Source: Roseateles depolymerans (lineage in GTDB: Bacteria; Pseudomonadota; Gammaproteobacteria; Burkholderiales; Burkholderiaceae_C). Taken from it: a DNA stretch of 64,000 nucleotides. Within the stretch, counting starts at the first letter, position 1. Each line of letters opens with the position of its first letter. Made by a program: the position numbers and the translations under genes. Under the pieces are notes generated by a model. It was not told the origin of the DNA. It ran no database searches and saw nothing but the letters and a program-made list of their open reading frames with translations. Below are positions 6,044 through 55,917 of this stretch, one piece after another. The DNA lies in the NCBI RefSeq assembly GCF_003387155.1, contig NZ_QUMT01000002.1, forward strand, positions 563,694 through 627,693, given 5' to 3'.

Positions 6044-6997
6044 TCAGCGCGGCCGCAAGACCAGGGTGTCCCCACGCTGCTCAAGCCGCAGTCCCAATTG
6101 GTCCGCCAGGGTCGCGAGCGAGCGCTGCGGTTGCGTGATGAGGAAACTGCCGGAGACGCGCAGCCCCGATATCGACGGGTCGCCCCGCATGGCCGCGCCG
6201 GAGTGGCGTTGAAAGTCGCGCAGGAAGATGTCCAGGCGCTGATCCATGACCACCAGCATGCCGCGGGTCCAGGCTTCGTCCGCAAAGCCGGCTTGCTCCA
6301 CAGCCTCATGACCTCCGCGGAAGAACCGCAGTTTCTGTCCTTGCAACACCCTCACCGGGAGCGAGCTGCCCTCCGGCCAGACCTCCACCGCATGGGCCTG
6401 TACCGCCACGACGGTGTTCCGCCCTGACTGCTCCACCGTCAGCCGCGTGCCGAGCGGAGTGATGCGGCCGTCCCGGGTGTGGATCTGGAGGGGGCGTTGC
6501 AGGGGGTCTGGGGCCGTTTGCAATTGCAGCGCGCCGCCGCTCAGATGCAGGGTGCGCTGCGTTGGGCTGTAGGCAATGCCCCATCGTGTTTCAGGCGCTA
6601 CCAGCAACTGCCCGCCATCGGGCAGCGTCACAGCCCGACGTTCGCCGGCATCCGTGGTCATCCATTCGATGGGCATTTCCCTGCCGGACCAGGAGCGCAT
6701 CACCAGGGCCACGATGGCCAGTGCGCCGAGCCCGCCTGCCGCCCCCAGGCCGCTCAGTGCCTGACGACGGCTGATCCGATTCGGGCGGCGCAATGCTTGA
6801 CTGGCGTTGGACGGCGTGAGGGCGAGCAAATCCTTCAGGCGCTCCATGCGCTGCCATGCGAGTCGATGGCCGTCGGCTTGGGCCAGCCAATCTCGCCACG
6901 CGGCGTGATCGGCTTCGGTGGCGGCGCTGTCGCTCAATCGCAAATGCCAGTCGGCCGCCTGCGCCAGATGCTGCGGATTCACAGCAGCGTCAGACAT
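6044..6997 (-). CDS. FecR-family anti-sigma factor / signal relay
   Basis: A 317-residue inner-membrane protein. An N-terminal cytoplasmic DUF4880-like segment (HLAQAADWHLRL...DWLAQADGHRLAW) binds the sigma factor. One membrane helix lies at about 82-102 (GLGALAIVALVM). The periplasmic FecR domain contains TLPDGGQLLVAPETR, and a C-terminal STN-like region (VSGSFLITQPQRSL) should meet the receptor's signalling domain. The start at 6997 falls inside the sigma-factor gene (19-bp overlap), so the two are translationally coupled. It relays ligand occupancy from the TonB receptor to the ECF sigma factor. Confidence 0.9.
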   Translation of the reverse strand: MSDAAVNPQHLAQAADWHLRLSDSAATEADHAAWRDWLAQADGHRLAWQRMERLKDLLALTPSNASQALRRPNRISRRQALSGLGAAGGLGALAIVALVMRSWSGREMPIEWMTTDAGERRAVTLPDGGQLLVAPETRWGIAYSPTQRTLHLSGGALQLQTAPDPLQRPLQIHTRDGRITPLGTRLTVEQSGRNTVVAVQAHAVEVWPEGSSLPVRVLQGQKLRFFRGGHEAVEQAGFADEAWTRGMLVVMDQRLDIFLRDFQRHSGAAMRGDPSISGLRVSGSFLITQPQRSLATLADQLGLRLEQRGDTLVLRPR

Positions 6998-15154: not shown

Positions 15155-15231
15155 CTGCCCGTAGCTCAACTGGATAGAGCAGCTGCCTTCTAAGCAGCAG
15201 GTCGGGGGTTCGAGTCCCTCCGGGCAGGCCA
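15155..15231 (+). tRNA. tRNA-Arg (anticodon TCT)
   Basis: A 77-nt cloverleaf can be drawn by hand. The acceptor stem CTGCCCG pairs with CGGGCAG, D stem GCTC with GAGC, anticodon stem GCTGC with GCAGC around loop CTTCTAA (anticodon TCT), and T stem GGGGG with CCCTC around TTCGAGT. CCA is encoded at 15229-15231. The prophage uses its 3' part as attachment site, and the gene stays intact because the phage carries an identical copy of that part. Confidence 0.97.
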
Positions 15232-15232
15232 A
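15183..15232. repeat. attL core, within the 3' part of tRNA-Arg
   Basis: These 50 bp are identical to 55868-55917. They run from the anticodon stem of the tRNA through its CCA end plus one base. Identity stops abruptly on both sides, which defines the integration cross-over block. Confidence 0.95.
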
Positions 15233-15300: not shown

Positions 15301-16284
15301 TCAGCGCGAAGGCTTCGCTTTGCGCGGCGCCTTGCCGTCCACGTAGGCCTCTGTCATGCGAATGGACTTGTGCCCCAGCAGCTCCTTCGCAGCCTCCAGG
15401 CTGCCAGCCTCTCGCGCATCCATCCCAGCCCGGCCACGCAAGTCGTGGATGTTGAGATCCTTGATGCCTGCTCGCTCGCATGCACGCACCCAGGCGCTGC
15501 GGATCCCGGCGTACTGGTAACCCCGGCCGCTCTGAGTCTTGAGCACGTGCCCGATCTTGTCGCCGCGGGCGCATGCCTCGATGGCGGCCCGCAGCGCTGG
15601 GCTCCACTGGATCAGCAGGCGCTGGCCGGTCTTTCCCTGCTCGACCAGCAGGCCATCGTCGGTCACGTCCTGCCACCGCATCTTGATCAGGTCGCCGATG
15701 CGCTGCCCGGTCAGCAGGGCCAGGTCGATCATTTGCACCAGCGCCTCTCCGTTGCGGGCCTGCTGCATGGCAGCCACCTTCAGAGCGGCGATCTCCGCGT
15801 CCGTCACCAGGCGCTTGCGGCCGGCCAGCGTCTTGGTCGGCACGTTGTCGATGGGGTTGAATCCCTCGCGCAGGCCCTCCAGCGCAGCGAAGGCCAGCAC
15901 CTGCCGCAGCATGGTCCTGTGCAAGTTGTAGGTGCGCGGGGTCTCGGAAAAATTCTTCAGGTATTCGGCGCACACCGGCGTCGTCACCTGGGCCGGCGCC
16001 AAGTCGGCGAATGCCTCGGCCATCACCTTGGAGATCCGTTCCTGGTCCGTGGCAGTCTTGTCCGCCCACTCGCCGCGCTTGGAATCCACCCAGCGACCGA
16101 TCACGGCGGGCATGCTGTCGTGGGTGTTGTCAGCCTTGAGCGTGGCGGCCAGGGCCTCATACATCGCGGCCATGCCGTCGGCGACGGAGCACAGCCGGAT
16201 CCACTTGCGCTCGATGGTGACGAAATAGAAGGCCCCGTGCTTCTGGTAGACGCGGCGGGGCAGGGAGCCAAGCTTGCGGATCAT
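15301..16284 (-). CDS. int: Tyrosine-family phage integrase
   Basis: A 327-residue site-specific recombinase responsible for integration at tRNA-Arg. Catalytic residues can be placed: Arg195 (LLTGQRIGD), Lys218, the HxxR pair His280/Arg283 (HDLRGR), His305 (LLGHKS) and the nucleophile Tyr314 (EAYVDG). The N-terminal part (residues 1-150) supplies arm and core binding. The start at 16284 overlaps the stop of the upstream DUF4224 gene (ATGA). It reads towards attL, 69 bp from the repeat. Confidence 0.95.
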   Translation of the reverse strand: MIRKLGSLPRRVYQKHGAFYFVTIERKWIRLCSVADGMAAMYEALAATLKADNTHDSMPAVIGRWVDSKRGEWADKTATDQERISKVMAEAFADLAPAQVTTPVCAEYLKNFSETPRTYNLHRTMLRQVLAFAALEGLREGFNPIDNVPTKTLAGRKRLVTDAEIAALKVAAMQQARNGEALVQMIDLALLTGQRIGDLIKMRWQDVTDDGLLVEQGKTGQRLLIQWSPALRAAIEACARGDKIGHVLKTQSGRGYQYAGIRSAWVRACERAGIKDLNIHDLRGRAGMDAREAGSLEAAKELLGHKSIRMTEAYVDGKAPRKAKPSR

Positions 16285-21350: not shown

Positions 21351-23291
21351 TCAGACGGCCTGTTCGATCTCGGCGGCCACTGCCAGGACGTGCGCCGAGA
21401 TCGCGGCGCAGATCGCTGAGAAGTCGCCTTCGCGATACAGCCGGGCCGAGCGGTCCGTGTGAGCGGTAAAGCCCAGGCTGGCCAGGAAATCCGACGTCAT
21501 GACGAAGCCCAGGCGCTCGTTGATGACGCCCAGTTTCAGCGTTGGAACCTCAGCGACCGGAGCGCGGTGCACGGGCGCTGCCGCCGGTGGCATCGGCGTA
21601 GCCACAGGCACCACCTCGGCGGCGACCTGGGCTGCGGCCTTGGCTGCCAGCTCATCGCGGGCTGCCTGCGCTGCAGCTTCCTCACGGACCAGGGCGGCCT
21701 GGTGCTGCTCACCCAGCGCGATCAGCACCTGGGAGCGCAGCTTCACGGCCTCGGCCAAGCGGTCGCCATAAAGGTCTTCGCTGGGCTCGTTGGCCATGAT
21801 GGCCATACGCTTGGCGTCGATGGCGCCGGAGGGGAGCGGGCCGTACTCCACCAGCGCTGTTTCCAACTGAGCGATGCGCGCATCGATCCGGGCCTTGCGG
21901 TCGGCATCCAGTCGCGCCTGGCGCTGCTCTTCCGCCGCCTTCGCGGCTGCGACCTTGTCTGCCTCGGCCTGCTTGTGCTCGGCGATGCGAGCGCGGATCA
22001 CCATGGCGAAGTCTTCCGGCGCCTTGGTGACGATCTGATGCAGGTCCGGGAACAGGAAGCCGAAGCCGTCAGCCTGCTCACGCAGTGCCGCCATGTTGGA
22101 GCGTACAGCGCGGGCGGCCATGTCTGCGGAAATCTTGGACTTGGCCAGCAGGGTGTCCAGCGCCTCCTGCATGCTGTCGAAAGAGCGCAGTCCCTTGATG
22201 GCGCCAGCGAAGTCCACCAGGGGCGTCGGCAGGATGGGCGAGGCACCGGGTGCCAGCTCTGCATTCAGTACCGCGTAGTGGTCGTGCAGCGCCGCCCGGG
22301 CGCGGACAACCGCCTCTTCCTTGACCTCCGTCTTGCGGCGGGTGACCAGCTTGTCCAGGTCCAGCCGCACGCGGCGTGCCTCGCCGCTGATCTCGTCGAT
22401 GGTGCGGAACAGCTCGTCGATGCTGCTGGTCTGGCTCAGCGCGTGCTGCTTGGCGGCGGCCAGGCGCTCCTCCACTTCGGAGCACCACTTCACCGCCTTG
22501 GCGGCGTCGGCGAAGTCCTTGTCGGTCTTCAGGTCACGGTTCACCGAGCCGATGGCGGCCAGGGCTGTGCGCTTGAAGTCGGCCAAGTTGCTGGAGGTGA
22601 CCTTGCCGGTGACCTCGATCAGCAGCGCCGGCAGCGCTTCAGGTGCCTTTCCGACCGGTGCAGGCTCTGCGGCTTCGGGCAGCTTGTAGGCTGCCAGATC
22701 CTTGGCGAACTGGTCCCAGCCGGCGACGATCTCGGCGCGCAGTGCTGCGTCCGGGAAATACCAGCAGTGCTGCTCCTCCACCAGCTCCTCACCGTTCCAC
22801 TGGCTGGCCATGAACAGCACCTTCTCGGCGCCGCTGATCATGAGCTGCTGCTCCATCTGCACGCGGTGATAGATGGGCAGCTCGCGGCCGGGATCGCATT
22901 CGCGGTACTCCGGAGTCGCAACGCGGCGGAAGCATTCGCGGAGCTCGTTGTTCAGCGCCTTGTGCTCGAAGCCGATGGAATAGTCCAGCGTCAGTCCGTC
23001 GAAGCTGGCGGACAAGCGGCCATTCGAGCCGGTGACCGGGTACAGCTCCTGGCCAATGAACTCCTCGGCCAGCGGCCGGGCCAGCGCCTCGGCGCGGTGC
23101 CCGTTGTCGTAGCGGCGCTGTGTGCCCTCGTCGATCTCGGCGGCCACGCCCGTGTGCAGCTCGCGCAGCAGCTCGGCGCGCGTCTTGTAGGGAGACACGC
23201 CCATCATTGCCGGCGCATCGCTGGCGTTGAAGTGCTGGGCGCGATAGGCCAGCCACTCGGGGCTGCCTTGGCGAAGGTTGTGGATCTTCAT
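21351..23291 (-). CDS. YqaJ-type viral recombinase exonuclease
   Basis: 646 residues. The N-terminal 230 residues carry the lambda-Exo/YqaJ fold: GSPEWLAYR, the NASDAPAMMGVSPYKTRAEL active-site entry region, and GFEHKAL with the catalytic acidic/Lys cluster. The rest, about 400 residues, is a long helical extension rich in Ala, Glu and Lys (predicted coiled coils), much longer than the usual 200-320-residue YqaJ proteins. It overlaps recT by an ATGA junction, so the pair forms an exonuclease-annealase recombination system. Confidence 0.85.
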   Translation of the reverse strand: MKIHNLRQGSPEWLAYRAQHFNASDAPAMMGVSPYKTRAELLRELHTGVAAEIDEGTQRRYDNGHRAEALARPLAEEFIGQELYPVTGSNGRLSASFDGLTLDYSIGFEHKALNNELRECFRRVATPEYRECDPGRELPIYHRVQMEQQLMISGAEKVLFMASQWNGEELVEEQHCWYFPDAALRAEIVAGWDQFAKDLAAYKLPEAAEPAPVGKAPEALPALLIEVTGKVTSSNLADFKRTALAAIGSVNRDLKTDKDFADAAKAVKWCSEVEERLAAAKQHALSQTSSIDELFRTIDEISGEARRVRLDLDKLVTRRKTEVKEEAVVRARAALHDHYAVLNAELAPGASPILPTPLVDFAGAIKGLRSFDSMQEALDTLLAKSKISADMAARAVRSNMAALREQADGFGFLFPDLHQIVTKAPEDFAMVIRARIAEHKQAEADKVAAAKAAEEQRQARLDADRKARIDARIAQLETALVEYGPLPSGAIDAKRMAIMANEPSEDLYGDRLAEAVKLRSQVLIALGEQHQAALVREEAAAQAARDELAAKAAAQVAAEVVPVATPMPPAAAPVHRAPVAEVPTLKLGVINERLGFVMTSDFLASLGFTAHTDRSARLYREGDFSAICAAISAHVLAVAAEIEQAV

Positions 23292-24145
23292 TGCTGTTCT
23301 CCCTCGGCAGCTTCCATGTCGCGGACGAACGGGTCGTCCACCTCGGCGGCATCCTGCTCAATCACGCCCAGCGCCAGGATGGCTTCCTGCTGCTCAGCGG
23401 AGAAAGTGGCCTTGGTCTGCAGCATGGCCAGCAGGTCCGGGGCGCTCTTACGGCCGGACTCGACCACGTTGCGCCAGCCAGGCAAGTTCTTGTCGAAGTC
23501 GGCCTGCGGATAGGCGGGCAGGGCGGGGCGGGCGACTTCCTCGGCTTGGCCCATATCGCGCACCGACGGCTGCGACGGCATCACCTGCAGCTCGTCTTCG
23601 GTGTAGACACCCAGCAGCGCGTCGGGCGCATACAGACGAGCCCAGTTGCGGGCCTGCAGGTAGCCGAACTGCTGCTTGGGGTTCGTCTGCCACAGTGGCG
23701 AGTTCTTCACCTTGATGCCGCTGATGGACAGCCACTCGGTCCACAGCACAGCATCTTCACCGGCGGGGATGAATCCGGCGCGGCACTCCAGATTGTTGCC
23801 TTCGCCGCGGAACTCGTAGTGCGGCCGGCCTTTGACCGCGCCGGAGTTCTTCAGCACGGCCACGACGAGCTGTGCCTCATACCCCAGGTTCCCGTTCACA
23901 AGGTGCGTTTTGCTGCCCACGATGTACGGGTCCATGCGCCAGCGCATCGCCTGCAGCGTGATGGCCATGCAATCGGCCGGCTTGCCTTGCAGGTGCTTGG
24001 GCACCGTGACGCTGCCGCGAGACATGAGGTTGGAGAACTCCATCAGCGCCGTCATGCGCTCGGAGTCGAACAGGAACGCCGACGGATTGCCGAGGTCGGT
24101 GTTTGCTGCGATGGCCGTCTGGTTGACGGGGGCGATTTCGGACAT
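23288..24145 (-). CDS. recT: RecT-family single-strand annealing protein
   Basis: 285 residues. LQGKPADCMAITLQAMRWRMDPY, SKTHLVNGNLGYEAQLVVAVL and KNSPLWQTNPKQQFGYLQARNWARLY are RecT hallmarks. It anneals single strands produced by the adjacent exonuclease and can circularise or recombine phage DNA. Translational coupling on both sides. Confidence 0.92.
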   Translation of the reverse strand: MSEIAPVNQTAIAANTDLGNPSAFLFDSERMTALMEFSNLMSRGSVTVPKHLQGKPADCMAITLQAMRWRMDPYIVGSKTHLVNGNLGYEAQLVVAVLKNSGAVKGRPHYEFRGEGNNLECRAGFIPAGEDAVLWTEWLSISGIKVKNSPLWQTNPKQQFGYLQARNWARLYAPDALLGVYTEDELQVMPSQPSVRDMGQAEEVARPALPAYPQADFDKNLPGWRNVVESGRKSAPDLLAMLQTKATFSAEQQEAILALGVIEQDAAEVDDPFVRDMEAAEGEQQ

Positions 24146-24503: not shown

Positions 24504-24730
24504 GCCGGCACCCGATCGGTCAGTTGGCGGCGGGCAGCATTGGCCAGCTTGCGGGCTGCCGCGGACTGGTCGAGGAACTGCAGCTCACGCGTGGCGTGGT
24601 ACTCGCGCTGCATCAGCGTCTTTTCCGGCTCCGCTGCCAGAGCGCGGTGCTCCATGGCAGCAGCCAGGTAGTCGTTCGCCTCTCGCAGGCGCTTGGCCAG
24701 TTCGGCCTTCAGCGCGGCGCTCACTTGCAC
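24500..24730 (-). CDS. Hypothetical phage protein (76 aa)
   Basis: 76 residues, almost entirely helical and charged (AELAKRLREANDYLAAAMEH). It overlaps the upstream lipoprotein gene by 10 bp and the downstream gene by 4 bp. No family recognised. Confidence 0.6.
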   Translation of the reverse strand: MQVSAALKAELAKRLREANDYLAAAMEHRALAAEPEKTLMQREYHATRELQFLDQSAAARKLANAARRQLTDRVPA

Positions 24731-24894
24731 TGCTCCGGATGAGCCTTGCAGTCCACGGGCAGGTTGCTCTGCCGCTGGTCCTCGTCGTCGTCACCACCGC
24801 CGCCGCAGCCGGTGAGCAGATTGCACAGCATCAGCGCGCACACCAGGGCCATCCACAGCGATGGCGACGATGCGATTTCGCGAAGTCGGTTCAT
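24721..24894 (-). CDS. Small phage lipoprotein, first gene of the leftward early operon
   Basis: 57 residues. A hydrophobic helix leads to the lipobox LLTGC (cleavage before Cys34), then a Gly/Asp-rich linker (GGGGDDDEDQRQ) and a short Cys-containing tail. GGAGC lies 5 bp before ATG at 24894, and the leftward promoter is 40-70 bp further upstream. It is exposed on the membrane early after induction or infection; an exclusion role is possible but not shown. Confidence 0.65.
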   Translation of the reverse strand: MNRLREIASSPSLWMALVCALMLCNLLTGCGGGGDDDEDQRQSNLPVDCKAHPEQCK

Positions 24895-24934: not shown

Positions 24935-24978
24935 ACTATGCGCGCAGGAATATTCCTTGTCAAGCTTGTAGGAATATT
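24935..24978 (-). promoter_or_regulatory. Leftward early promoter with two repressor boxes
   Basis: On the minus strand, -35 TTGACA (24963-24958) and -10 CATAGT (24940-24935) are 17 bp apart. The spacer contains the palindrome GGAATATTCC (24948-24957), and a second box, GGAATATT, lies at 24971-24978. The same GAATATTC core occurs at 26206-26213 between cI and the Cro-like gene. The boxes are the obvious CI/Cro operators by position. Confidence 0.7.
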
Positions 24979-24985
24979 TGCACGC

Positions 24986-25012
24986 AAAAAAATGCCCGCT
25001 AGGGCGCGGGCT
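24986..25012 (-). terminator. Intrinsic terminator of the cI-lipoprotein operon
   Basis: On the minus strand GCCCGC and GCGGGC pair around GCCCTA and are followed at once by A then seven T. It lies 19 bp past the lipoprotein stop (25031) and just before the leftward early promoter, so it insulates the early operon from repressor-operon transcription. Confidence 0.85.
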
Positions 25013-25030: not shown

Positions 25031-25579
25031 TCAGTCTTGCCAGCTAGCGCATTGCCCATCCGGGCGTCTGTAGCCTGGCCCGCCTCTTGAGCCGCACCCA
25101 CCAATGAGGAAGAACCGTGCCGGCGCGGCGGGCTTCGCGGAGGCATGGTTGATGATCACGCGGCTGAACTCCACGGTATTCAGTCGGCGGCCATCCCACT
25201 CCCAGAACGCTTGCCCTTGAAATCCAAGCCTTGCCAAGCACTGCGGGAACTGTTGATCAAAGATGTCCGAAAACCTGCCGAACTCCGCGGCTTGGGAAGC
25301 TCTGGCGATGTCCGGAGCAAGAAGGAAACTGCGTCTGAAGACATCAAACGACTCTTTTGGGCCTTCCAGACAACTGCGTTCGATCTTTGCGTCCGTGGCG
25401 GCTCTAACGTCGGCGGGCGCGGTATTTGGCGCAGACCTTCCATCCGCGTAAGCGTAGTCATAGCGCAGCGGAGTGCGCGCCAATTCTGCTGAGACAGCCT
25501 GCCAGCGCTCAAGCTCAGAAGGAGCGTGTGAGCATCCCGCAAGCACCGACATCAAGGCCGCGAGCGCCGCTTTCCTCAT
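25031..25579 (-). CDS. Lipoprotein translationally coupled to the CI repressor
   Basis: 182 residues. The signal MRKAALAALMSVLAGC has the lipobox LAGC with Ser at +2, predicting outer-membrane sorting. The mature part holds four further Cys (SCLEG, QCLAR, GGCGS, GQCAS) that could form two disulfides, and the segment FDVFRRSFLLAPDIARAS. ATG at 25579 overlaps the cI stop (25576-25578) as ATGA, with GGGAGG as ribosome site; a GTG at 25585 is an alternative. The terminator follows directly. It should therefore be made in the lysogen along with CI. Prophage lipoproteins with this expression often block superinfection, which is an inference here. No family recognised. Confidence 0.75.
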   Translation of the reverse strand: MRKAALAALMSVLAGCSHAPSELERWQAVSAELARTPLRYDYAYADGRSAPNTAPADVRAATDAKIERSCLEGPKESFDVFRRSFLLAPDIARASQAAEFGRFSDIFDQQFPQCLARLGFQGQAFWEWDGRRLNTVEFSRVIINHASAKPAAPARFFLIGGCGSRGGPGYRRPDGQCASWQD

Positions 25580-26184
25580 GACCACCTCCCTTCGACTGCA
25601 GTCAGCACTGCCAGGATTTCAAGGCCGTCGCGCTGACTGTCAAGCGGCGCATAGGCCGCGTTCTCGGCGTGTGCTTCCCAACATCCAGGCCTCCCCGCCC
25701 GGTAGTACCTGAAACACACTCCACCTGTGCTGTCCCTCAACAGCACTCCGTCGCCAGGTCGCGGAGTCACGCGGCGGTCGAACTGCACCCACGCACCAGA
25801 CGGCACGCGCGGCGCCATGGCCGCGTCATCAATCTGGACCCGAAACACCGGCGGCAGCTTGTCCCGATCTGTCATCTGGATCTGCTCCCACGTCATTGTT
25901 GGGACAGTCTCGACGACCAACTGGCTCACTGAATGAGCCACCCCCACTGCGGGGGATGACCAATTTGGTTCGGGCCCAAGGCCACGTTCGAGCCACGCGG
26001 TTGGCACCTGCACGGCTGCAGCGAGCCGCGCGATTGCTGGGGTCTCCTGGGTATCACCCTTCTCAATCTTGGACACGGCCGGCTGTCCAAGCTCGGCAGC
26101 CTCGGCTAGCTGCGCCTGTGTCATGTGCCGCATCTTTCGCGCGTGCTGGAGTCTTTGGCCCAGCGTCATGAGTTCTCTTGCCAT
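25576..26184 (-). CDS. CI-like phage repressor (XRE HTH plus degenerate S24 domain)
   Basis: 202 residues. The helix-turn-helix (about 8-45) has recognition text ELGQPAVSKIEKG. The C-terminal half follows the LexA/S24 fold (FRVQIDDAAMAPRVPSGAWV, then PGDGVLLRD). The catalytic Ser before Met is Ala122 and the catalytic Lys position has Arg159/Tyr160, so self-cleavage looks impossible. ATG codons at 26184 and 26169 are both possible; AAGAGAAC precedes the second. It maintains lysogeny by binding GAATATTC boxes, by inference from position. Confidence 0.85.
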   Translation of the reverse strand: MARELMTLGQRLQHARKMRHMTQAQLAEAAELGQPAVSKIEKGDTQETPAIARLAAAVQVPTAWLERGLGPEPNWSSPAVGVAHSVSQLVVETVPTMTWEQIQMTDRDKLPPVFRVQIDDAAMAPRVPSGAWVQFDRRVTPRPGDGVLLRDSTGGVCFRYYRAGRPGCWEAHAENAAYAPLDSQRDGLEILAVLTAVEGRWS

Positions 26185-26188
26185 GAGG

Positions 26189-26234
26189 GGGATTTAATCC
26201 CACTTGAATATTCCCGCAGGACTGGCACAATAGT
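26189..26234 (+). promoter_or_regulatory. cI-cro intergenic operator region and weak rightward promoter
   Basis: The palindrome GGGATT-T-AATCCC (26189-26201) and the box GAATATTC (26206-26213) lie between the divergent repressor genes. TTGAAT at 26204-26209 and AATAGT at 26229-26234 could be a rightward promoter, but the 19-bp spacing is poor. No convincing promoter for cI itself is visible. Confidence 0.5.
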
Positions 26235-26252
26235 CCCAAAGGAATGCAAGCC

Positions 26253-26465
26253 ATGGAAGCACGCGACTACGTCATCGCCCTGCTGGGTGCCGGTATGACC
26301 CAGGCTCAGATCGCCGAAAAAACCGGCATGGGCCAGCCAACCGTCAGCAAGGTCTATCGGGGAGAAGTGGCCGATGTTCTCTCCCGCAATTACCGCCGCC
26401 TTCAGGAATTGCACGCTGAAGTGGTTGGCGACCAAAAGGCGCCCAGCGAAGCCGCCCAGGCCTGA
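26253..26465 (+). CDS. Cro-like HTH regulator
   Basis: 70 residues. The helix-turn-helix MTQAQIAEKTGMGQPTVSKVYRG is nearly identical in its recognition helix (GQPTVSK) to that of the divergent CI protein (GQPAVSK), so both should read the same operators. AAAGGA (26238-26243) suits ATG at 26253 and directly abuts the earlier ATG at 26244. It is the first gene of the rightward operon. Confidence 0.8.
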   Translation: MEARDYVIALLGAGMTQAQIAEKTGMGQPTVSKVYRGEVADVLSRNYRRLQELHAEVVGDQKAPSEAAQA

Positions 26466-55867: not shown

Positions 55868-55917
55868 CTGCCTTCTAAGCAGCAGGTCGGGGGTTCGAGT
55901 CCCTCCGGGCAGGCCAA
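55868..55917. repeat. attR core
   Basis: 50 bp identical to 15183-15232. Only the 3' part of the tRNA sequence is here, with no D arm or acceptor 5' strand, so it is not a second tRNA gene. The 197 bp from here to the next gene hold nothing recognisable. Confidence 0.95.

Follow-up and report, generated by a model that had tools for sequence, protein, structure and literature searches.

The window analysed here, a 64,000-nt stretch of the Roseateles depolymerans genome, contains a complete-looking prophage of ~40.7 kb between 50-bp direct repeats (15183-15232 and 55868-55917). These repeats are the predicted attL and attR, the first copy lying in a tRNA-Arg gene beside an integrase gene (15301-16284; Pfam Phage_integrase, E = 5.4e-17), and the IMG/VR record that encodes an identical lipoprotein has a length close to that of the prophage (40,495 bp). 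The region around the repressor is organized as follows:

21351..24145, minus strand: homologues of recT and recE, part of the leftward early operon (Pfam and PHROGs matches)
24721..24894, minus strand: second, smaller lipoprotein-like ORF (57 aa) with LLTGC, opening the pL-like operon
24935..24980, minus strand: pL-like promoter (TTGACA-17-CATAGT) and candidate CI operators (GGAATATTCC at 24947-24956, GGAATATTTG at 24971-24980)
24994..25011, minus strand: stem-loop of the intrinsic terminator that ends the cI-lipoprotein unit, followed by a T run
25031..25096, minus strand: C-terminal module CGSRGGPGYRRPDGQCASWQD plus stop codon, shared with otherwise different exported proteins
25031..25579, minus strand: lipoprotein gene (182 aa), ATGA-coupled to cI, with lipid-anchor Cys16 and no family match
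25576..26184, minus strand: CI-type repressor (202 aa) with an HTH and an S24-like C-terminal domain, dyad columns Ala/Arg
26185..26243, no strand assigned: 59-bp divergent region between cI and cro with TGAATATTCC at 26205-26214, possibly oR and pRM
26244..26465, plus strand: cro-like HTH gene (Pfam and PHROG matches)

A repressor-lipoprotein unit closed by a terminator

The repressor is identified by Pfam matches to HTH_31/HTH_3 and Peptidase_S24 and by a match to phrog_4 (E = 2.3e-17). In an alignment with 11 other repressors, most of which have Ser and Lys in the S24 columns that we take to be the self-cleavage dyad, these columns read Ala and Arg in cI, so RecA-stimulated self-cleavage of CI appears unlikely. 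Both columns likewise read Ala/Arg in a cI relative from genome G026 (L005), the L102 repressor keeps Ser with Arg at the Lys column, and the L103 repressor departs as well.

The lipoprotein gene is the sole gene between cI and a strong terminator (25011-24994; GCCCGC-6-GCGGGC-ATTTTTTT; -14.2 kcal/mol, z = -3.35; seven T follow the hairpin), which falls just outside the interval 25031..26184. Between 24600 and 26800, four terminator-like sites were found against 1.8 expected: this hairpin on both strands and two weaker sites in the lipoprotein gene (25350-25332 and 25283-25265). The same interval holds a single promoter-like site (0.6 expected by chance), the pL-like site at 24963-24935, and none for cI itself, so we infer pRM. 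Palindromes of the GGAATATTCC type occur near the pL-like site and between cI and cro; the assignment of candidate CI operators rests on this position, because the window contains no more copies of the 10-mer, with two mismatches allowed, than expected by chance. Beyond the terminator, the order is pL-like site, 57-aa ORF, then recT and recE with small ORFs between. Lying between cI and the pL-like region, the lipoprotein gene occupies the place of rexAB in lambda. In the 57-aa ORF (24721-24894), LLTGC is followed by GGGGDDDED, and this protein is perhaps a surface factor of early infection.

The first-pass annotation had described a lipoprotein whose start overlaps the cI stop, and this coupling is exact: on the minus strand, the ATGA at the start codon (ATG 25579) shares 4 nt with the cI TGA. 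Because of this overlap and the strong ribosome site GGGAGGTGGTC ahead of it, ATG 25579 is a better start than GTG 25585, which yields a 184-aa product in the ORF list. The N-terminus, MRKAALAALMSVLAGC followed by Ser at +2, has a hydrophobic stretch (2.34 over 11 residues) and a lipobox, LAGC at residues 13-16 ([LVI][ASTVI][GAS]C), and four further cysteines (70, 114, 162 and 177) follow Cys16, both as annotated. Ser at +2 directs lipoproteins to the outer membrane under the sorting rule from Escherichia coli, which the predicted mature N-terminus fits. Outside the N-terminal signal, none of the 19-residue stretches of the protein is strongly hydrophobic (best in the mature part, 0.89).

Codon use in the lipoprotein gene is atypical (-0.146 per codon against a recE-trained model), as is that of cI (-0.027 per codon), with GC3 of 0.645 and 0.685, respectively, versus 0.853 in recT; the low GC3 of the lipoprotein gene can be read as a moron-like sign. 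A gene caller trained on recE missed both the lipoprotein gene and cI; this and the atypical codon use count against the ORF being a gene. However, the signal and lipobox fix its first codons and a conserved in-frame module running up to the stop fixes its last, so the ORF is a real gene and the cI-coupled arrangement is confirmed.

No full-length relatives of the lipoprotein

The whole lipoprotein has no family in Pfam, NCBIfam or PADLOC and only two weak PHROG matches, both on the signal peptide (E = 0.028 and 0.15); no relative of solved structure was found (best E = 1.1). Full-length relatives were absent from 50,697 phage records, 72,556 plasmids, viral contigs (apart from the identical IMG/VR record), genome contigs (searched with exact short peptides, which detect close relatives only), and, the own genome aside, 149 relatives' genomes and 399 family genomes. 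Two matches were returned from the 149 genomes, one being the own genome. The other (G139; E = 7e-5) overlaps an opposite-strand ORF for a regulator and was rejected as chance. Matches at E <= 0.1 occurred in 63 of the 399 family genomes, a count that includes the own genome and five C-terminal matches. Since the main part of the protein, ~145 residues in the middle, has no relatives, no function is inherited from homologues.

If the gene had been captured recently and served no selected function in this phage, both the lack of full-length relatives and the low GC3 would be explained. That explanation appears very improbable: the signal, lipobox, ribosome site, exact coupling and C-terminal module are all intact, and the arrangement recurs in other phages (see below).

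A C-terminal module shared with other exported proteins

The statement that the lipoprotein matches no known family holds for the protein as a whole and fails at its C-terminus, where the last 21 residues (CGSRGGPGYRRPDGQCASWQD) form a module common to other exported proteins. Residues 160-182 matched in five genomes of the family besides the own genome (70-83% identity, E = 1.1e-6 to 6.5e-4; 399 genomes), and further carriers were found in viral and genome contigs. Seventeen aligned rows share an invariant Cys-Gly-Ser-Arg-Gly-Gly-Pro-Gly-x-Arg and a later Gly-x-Cys; forms outside this alignment vary (for example, CGCK, CGDRS and CGEK). The window lipoprotein contains the defining Cys-Gly-x-Arg-Gly-Gly-Pro-Gly-x-Arg followed by Gly-x-Cys, and the module profile, which includes the window's own row, matches its genome at E = 1.7e-13. 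The carriers are otherwise dissimilar, and export signals are apparent at their N-termini (judged by eye; that of the window protein was scored).

The module is uncommon. Its profile matched 4 of the 250 genomes examined from the order (two of them strongly), 1 of 16 from the genus, namely the own genome, and 5 of 379 from the family, own included, with at most 22 candidates scored per genome in this last search. No Pfam, PHROGs or NCBIfam family covers it in the 8, 6 and 6 carriers scanned, respectively, and a literature text search for 'RGGPGYR' returned nothing, which is no proof of its being unpublished. The 30 C-terminal residues matched nothing in phages or plasmids, perhaps on account of the short query, and an 89-aa relative used as query retrieved only two chance-level phage records (E = 9).

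At the DNA level, the window contains a single match to the module pattern, and none of 100 shuffles contains any. Genome-wide, the 29-nt pattern is unspecific (5 of 398 genomes versus 10 for the backward control), and the analysis was therefore confined to in-frame ORFs in which the later Cys is present. An exact search of IMG/VR gave 52 stretches, 21 of which passed the in-frame filter; L071 (a chance match) and L073 (the record of the window itself) were removed, and L064, L074, L078, L081 and L090 were counted as one, leaving 15 distinct phage loci besides the window. A Curtobacterium match (L035) was not recovered by the in-frame filter and was excluded. As in the window, the module forms the end of the protein in 6 of the 15 loci.

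The homologue check turned up no ordinary chromosomal lipoprotein with a known role, in keeping with the first-pass reading: chromosomal proteins found share the module only, and the sole domain recognised in any of them marks homologues of SNase-type nucleases. Two SNase carriers were found, one on a viral contig with the module at its C-terminus (L057; Pfam SNase, E = 4.5e-19) and one on a Burkholderiales chromosome (L154, identical to L041; E = 3.7e-19). As the module occurs on these nucleases and on chromosomal proteins among ordinary genes (L150 and L151), it is not specific to phage exclusion.

These fusions raise the question of whether the lipoprotein is an accessory of an extracytoplasmic nuclease, the module serving as an adaptor shared with secreted SNase proteins so that incoming phage DNA is degraded or trapped in the periplasm. 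One repressor operon (L104) encodes a secreted SNase, which speaks for such a role; with only two fusions found and no SNase domain in the window lipoprotein (Pfam), we consider it improbable.

Two arrangements at module loci are recorded here. The Burkholderiales nuclease (L154:8528-9256, also L041) has a degenerate second module copy at its C-terminus and a second SNase gene nearby (6074-6586). A gene for an exported-looking protein rich in His and Ser is followed by one for a small module protein, both chromosomally among ordinary genes (L150:8885-9249 and L151:8971-9491) and on a viral contig (L048:1350-1858).

Some module genes lie behind phage repressors

Module genes are enriched in repressor operons, defined by a same-strand repressor at most 1.5 kb upstream. 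This holds for 7 of the 15 distinct phage loci (L045, L054, L063, the L064 group, L075, L088 and L094) compared with 13 of 176 neighbouring called genes (Fisher P = 1.8e-4), the latter being a rough control because the stretches had been chosen for the module. Repressors were detected with a profile built here, except for the HTH gene of L045, which was found by eye and then by Pfam; each of the seven carries an HTH or S24 domain by Pfam. Repressor stop and module-gene start overlap as TGATG in L088 and L094. The other eight loci were not placed in a repressor operon, and some of these contigs end close by. A later module scan gave 12 loci, four of them new: L160 and L161 are two clear new cases with a same-strand S24 repressor upstream, L163 is doubtful (its only upstream candidate is a 108-aa profile match at E = 2.2e-5 that has no Pfam match), and no upstream repressor was found for L162. 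Another exported-looking ORF stands between repressor and module gene in L063, L064, L160 and L161.

Exported proteins recur as the first gene after the repressor

A second comparison used the position of the gene and took the window RecE as query, yielding 46 viral loci and, among them, 13 distinct repressors of at least 190 aa upstream on the recE strand, window included. A hydrophobic N-terminus is present in the gene immediately following the repressor in 8 of 13 regions, as against 19 of the 297 remaining called genes (P = 1.1e-6); the corresponding lipobox counts are 5 of 13 and 3 of 297 (P = 2.9e-6). Lipoboxes occur in the window, L102, L122, L127 and L138, and a signal or membrane segment in L098, L104 and L108. 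In the remaining five regions, the first gene is absent or has no hydrophobic N-terminus: that of L103 has a membrane segment further in, that of L118 is cytosolic with a lipoprotein second (this lipoprotein is counted among the control matches), and L113, L135 and L140 show no convincing signal. None of the slot proteins with which the window lipoprotein was compared is related to it (best E = 2).

Atypical genes escape the gene caller that supplied the 297 and 176 controls. A control that used called genes as anchors only, applying the same automatic next-gene rule throughout, gave the same answer: 8 of 13 versus 16 of 274 for a hydrophobic N-terminus (P = 7.0e-7) and 5 of 13 versus 3 of 274 for a lipobox (P = 4.3e-6), or P = 5.2e-6 and 5.9e-5 with the window left out. 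When the preceding gene was any other gene of 190 aa or more, each feature was seen in 1 of 79 cases. All these P values are optimistic, because contigs were merged only where the repressor was identical and because two repressors are doubtful, L103 having no Pfam match and L138 being an HTH joined to part of an AAA domain; without these two, the counts become 7 of 11 for the hydrophobic N-terminus and 4 of 11 for the lipobox. A search with cI among the 399 family genomes, in which seven candidates were scored per genome, found one relative at E = 1e-20, in G026. There, the next same-strand ORF encodes a cytosolic zinc-ribbon-like protein and not a lipoprotein; G026 is not RecE-linked and lies outside the 13 regions.

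Two of the slots hold related small lipoproteins (L127:7071-7346 and L138:7044-7331; 34% over 92 aa) behind different HTH/S24 genes, which by their sequences constitute a putative recurrent slot family; the L138 protein retrieved only itself from viral contigs and nothing from phages. In L104 (5115-5776), genes for two secreted proteins, an Excalibur protein and an SNase nuclease, lie behind the repressor, the nuclease being a possible periplasmic DNase made by the lysogen.

The slot thus holds exported proteins in other phages, several of them lipoproteins, which makes a lysogen and envelope reading likelier than before. The first-pass claim that the gene must be expressed in the lysogen was too strong as worded for something deduced from sequence. 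The recurrence of the module behind repressors and the exported first genes of RecE-linked regions nevertheless make both lysogen expression and an envelope role of the lipoprotein likely, and overall the earlier interpretation is partly supported.

Comparison with known repressor-linked and excluding systems

The kind of place is known. The region from the repressor to n is described as a common moron site, including rexAB and bstA (PMC7067206), and RexABpp of a Pseudomonas putida prophage is reported downstream of a CI-like repressor with two genes between (PMC12894663). Like the window lipoprotein gene, both rex systems, as these sources present them, lie downstream of a CI repressor, and the window gene stands, as does rexAB, between cI and a pL-like region, whose operators are candidates by position. 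This place would suit an abortive system like RexAB, or a regulator that feeds back on the repressor. However, Rex comprises a DNA-binding RexA and a membrane RexB, whereas the window has a single lipoprotein gene whose product lacks any strongly hydrophobic stretch beyond its signal and any Rex match in Pfam or PHROGs, and we regard a Rex-like role as decidedly improbable.

Among phage lipoproteins of Gram-negative hosts, Llp and Cor block infection. The window lipoprotein differs from these and from Lpp021 and Lpp010 of mEpimmI in having no Pfam family and only signal-level PHROG matches. According to the available account of mEpimmI, expressed Lpp021 and Lpp010 exclude phages and are encoded in the structural cluster (PMC11893012), whereas the window gene stands behind the repressor, a difference that counts against the analogy with exclusion. 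Closer in position is Ltp of Streptococcus thermophilus phage TP-J34, described as a small lipoprotein of the lysogeny module for which exclusion was shown; that module is transcribed opposite to the other genes, and ltp is thought to have been horizontally acquired (PMC3952083). Both proteins are small lipoproteins encoded within a lysogeny module, but Ltp belongs to a Gram-positive phage, its gene is listed between int and a gene given as a metalloproteinase or cI-like, and the window lipoprotein matches no Ltp family (0 Pfam and 0 NCBIfam families). The secreted SNase proteins (thermonucleases) L057 and L154 share the C-terminal module with the window lipoprotein, from which the nuclease domain is absent. 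The Ltp, Rex and Lpp parallels are best described as analogies and not as membership, no sequence having been found that links the window lipoprotein to any of them.

A proposed role at the lysogen envelope

We propose that the phage is temperate and lambda-like and carries the lipoprotein gene as cargo (a moron) in its rex slot; the most likely single role of the gene, put forward tentatively, is superinfection exclusion at the envelope. Under this proposal, pRM would transcribe cI and the lipoprotein gene together in the lysogen, and ribosomes ending cI would re-initiate on the lipoprotein start. The signal would be cut at Cys16, lipid added and the protein delivered to the outer membrane, where the middle part of ~145 residues may hold the specificity. 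The C-terminal module would act outside the cytoplasm, perhaps stapled by Cys162-Cys177, and superinfecting phages would be excluded at the receptor or DNA-entry step, as with Ltp and Lpp021. The coupling, lipobox, terminator, integrase, att repeats, low GC3 and the slot and module enrichments favour this proposal; the lack of a PADLOC match and the 8 of 15 module loci and 5 of 13 slots that depart from the pattern count against it.

Superinfection exclusion probably leads, with other forms of lysogenic conversion close behind. In these, the prophage would gain through host fitness without phage exclusion, by way of envelope stress, competitor protection or surface binding, an account to which we give somewhat less weight. 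It draws on the diversity of exported proteins in the same slot of relatives, which are not obviously anti-phage (Excalibur and SNase in L104), and on the module proteins encoded among ordinary chromosomal genes; the studied occupants of comparable places (RexAB, RexABpp and Ltp), in contrast, are anti-phage.

Repressor-operon genes are among the few expressed by a silent prophage and therefore reveal what the prophage does for its host. One slot behind the repressor repeatedly holds exported proteins, and several of these, from different phages, share a short tail. The kind of place is familiar and the protein undescribed; the new part is the tail module that recurs behind repressors. More speculatively, and on balance doubtful, the CGSRGGPG module may mark an undescribed class of envelope proteins made from the repressor operons of temperate phages, amounting to a general prophage surface defence at DNA entry. 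Such a class would combine a variable body, or none, with a near-constant two-cysteine tail shared with secreted nucleases, and the window lipoprotein would be its outer-membrane-anchored form. The 21-residue motif behind a repressor provides a searchable handle on prophage surface factors that are missing from the family libraries used.
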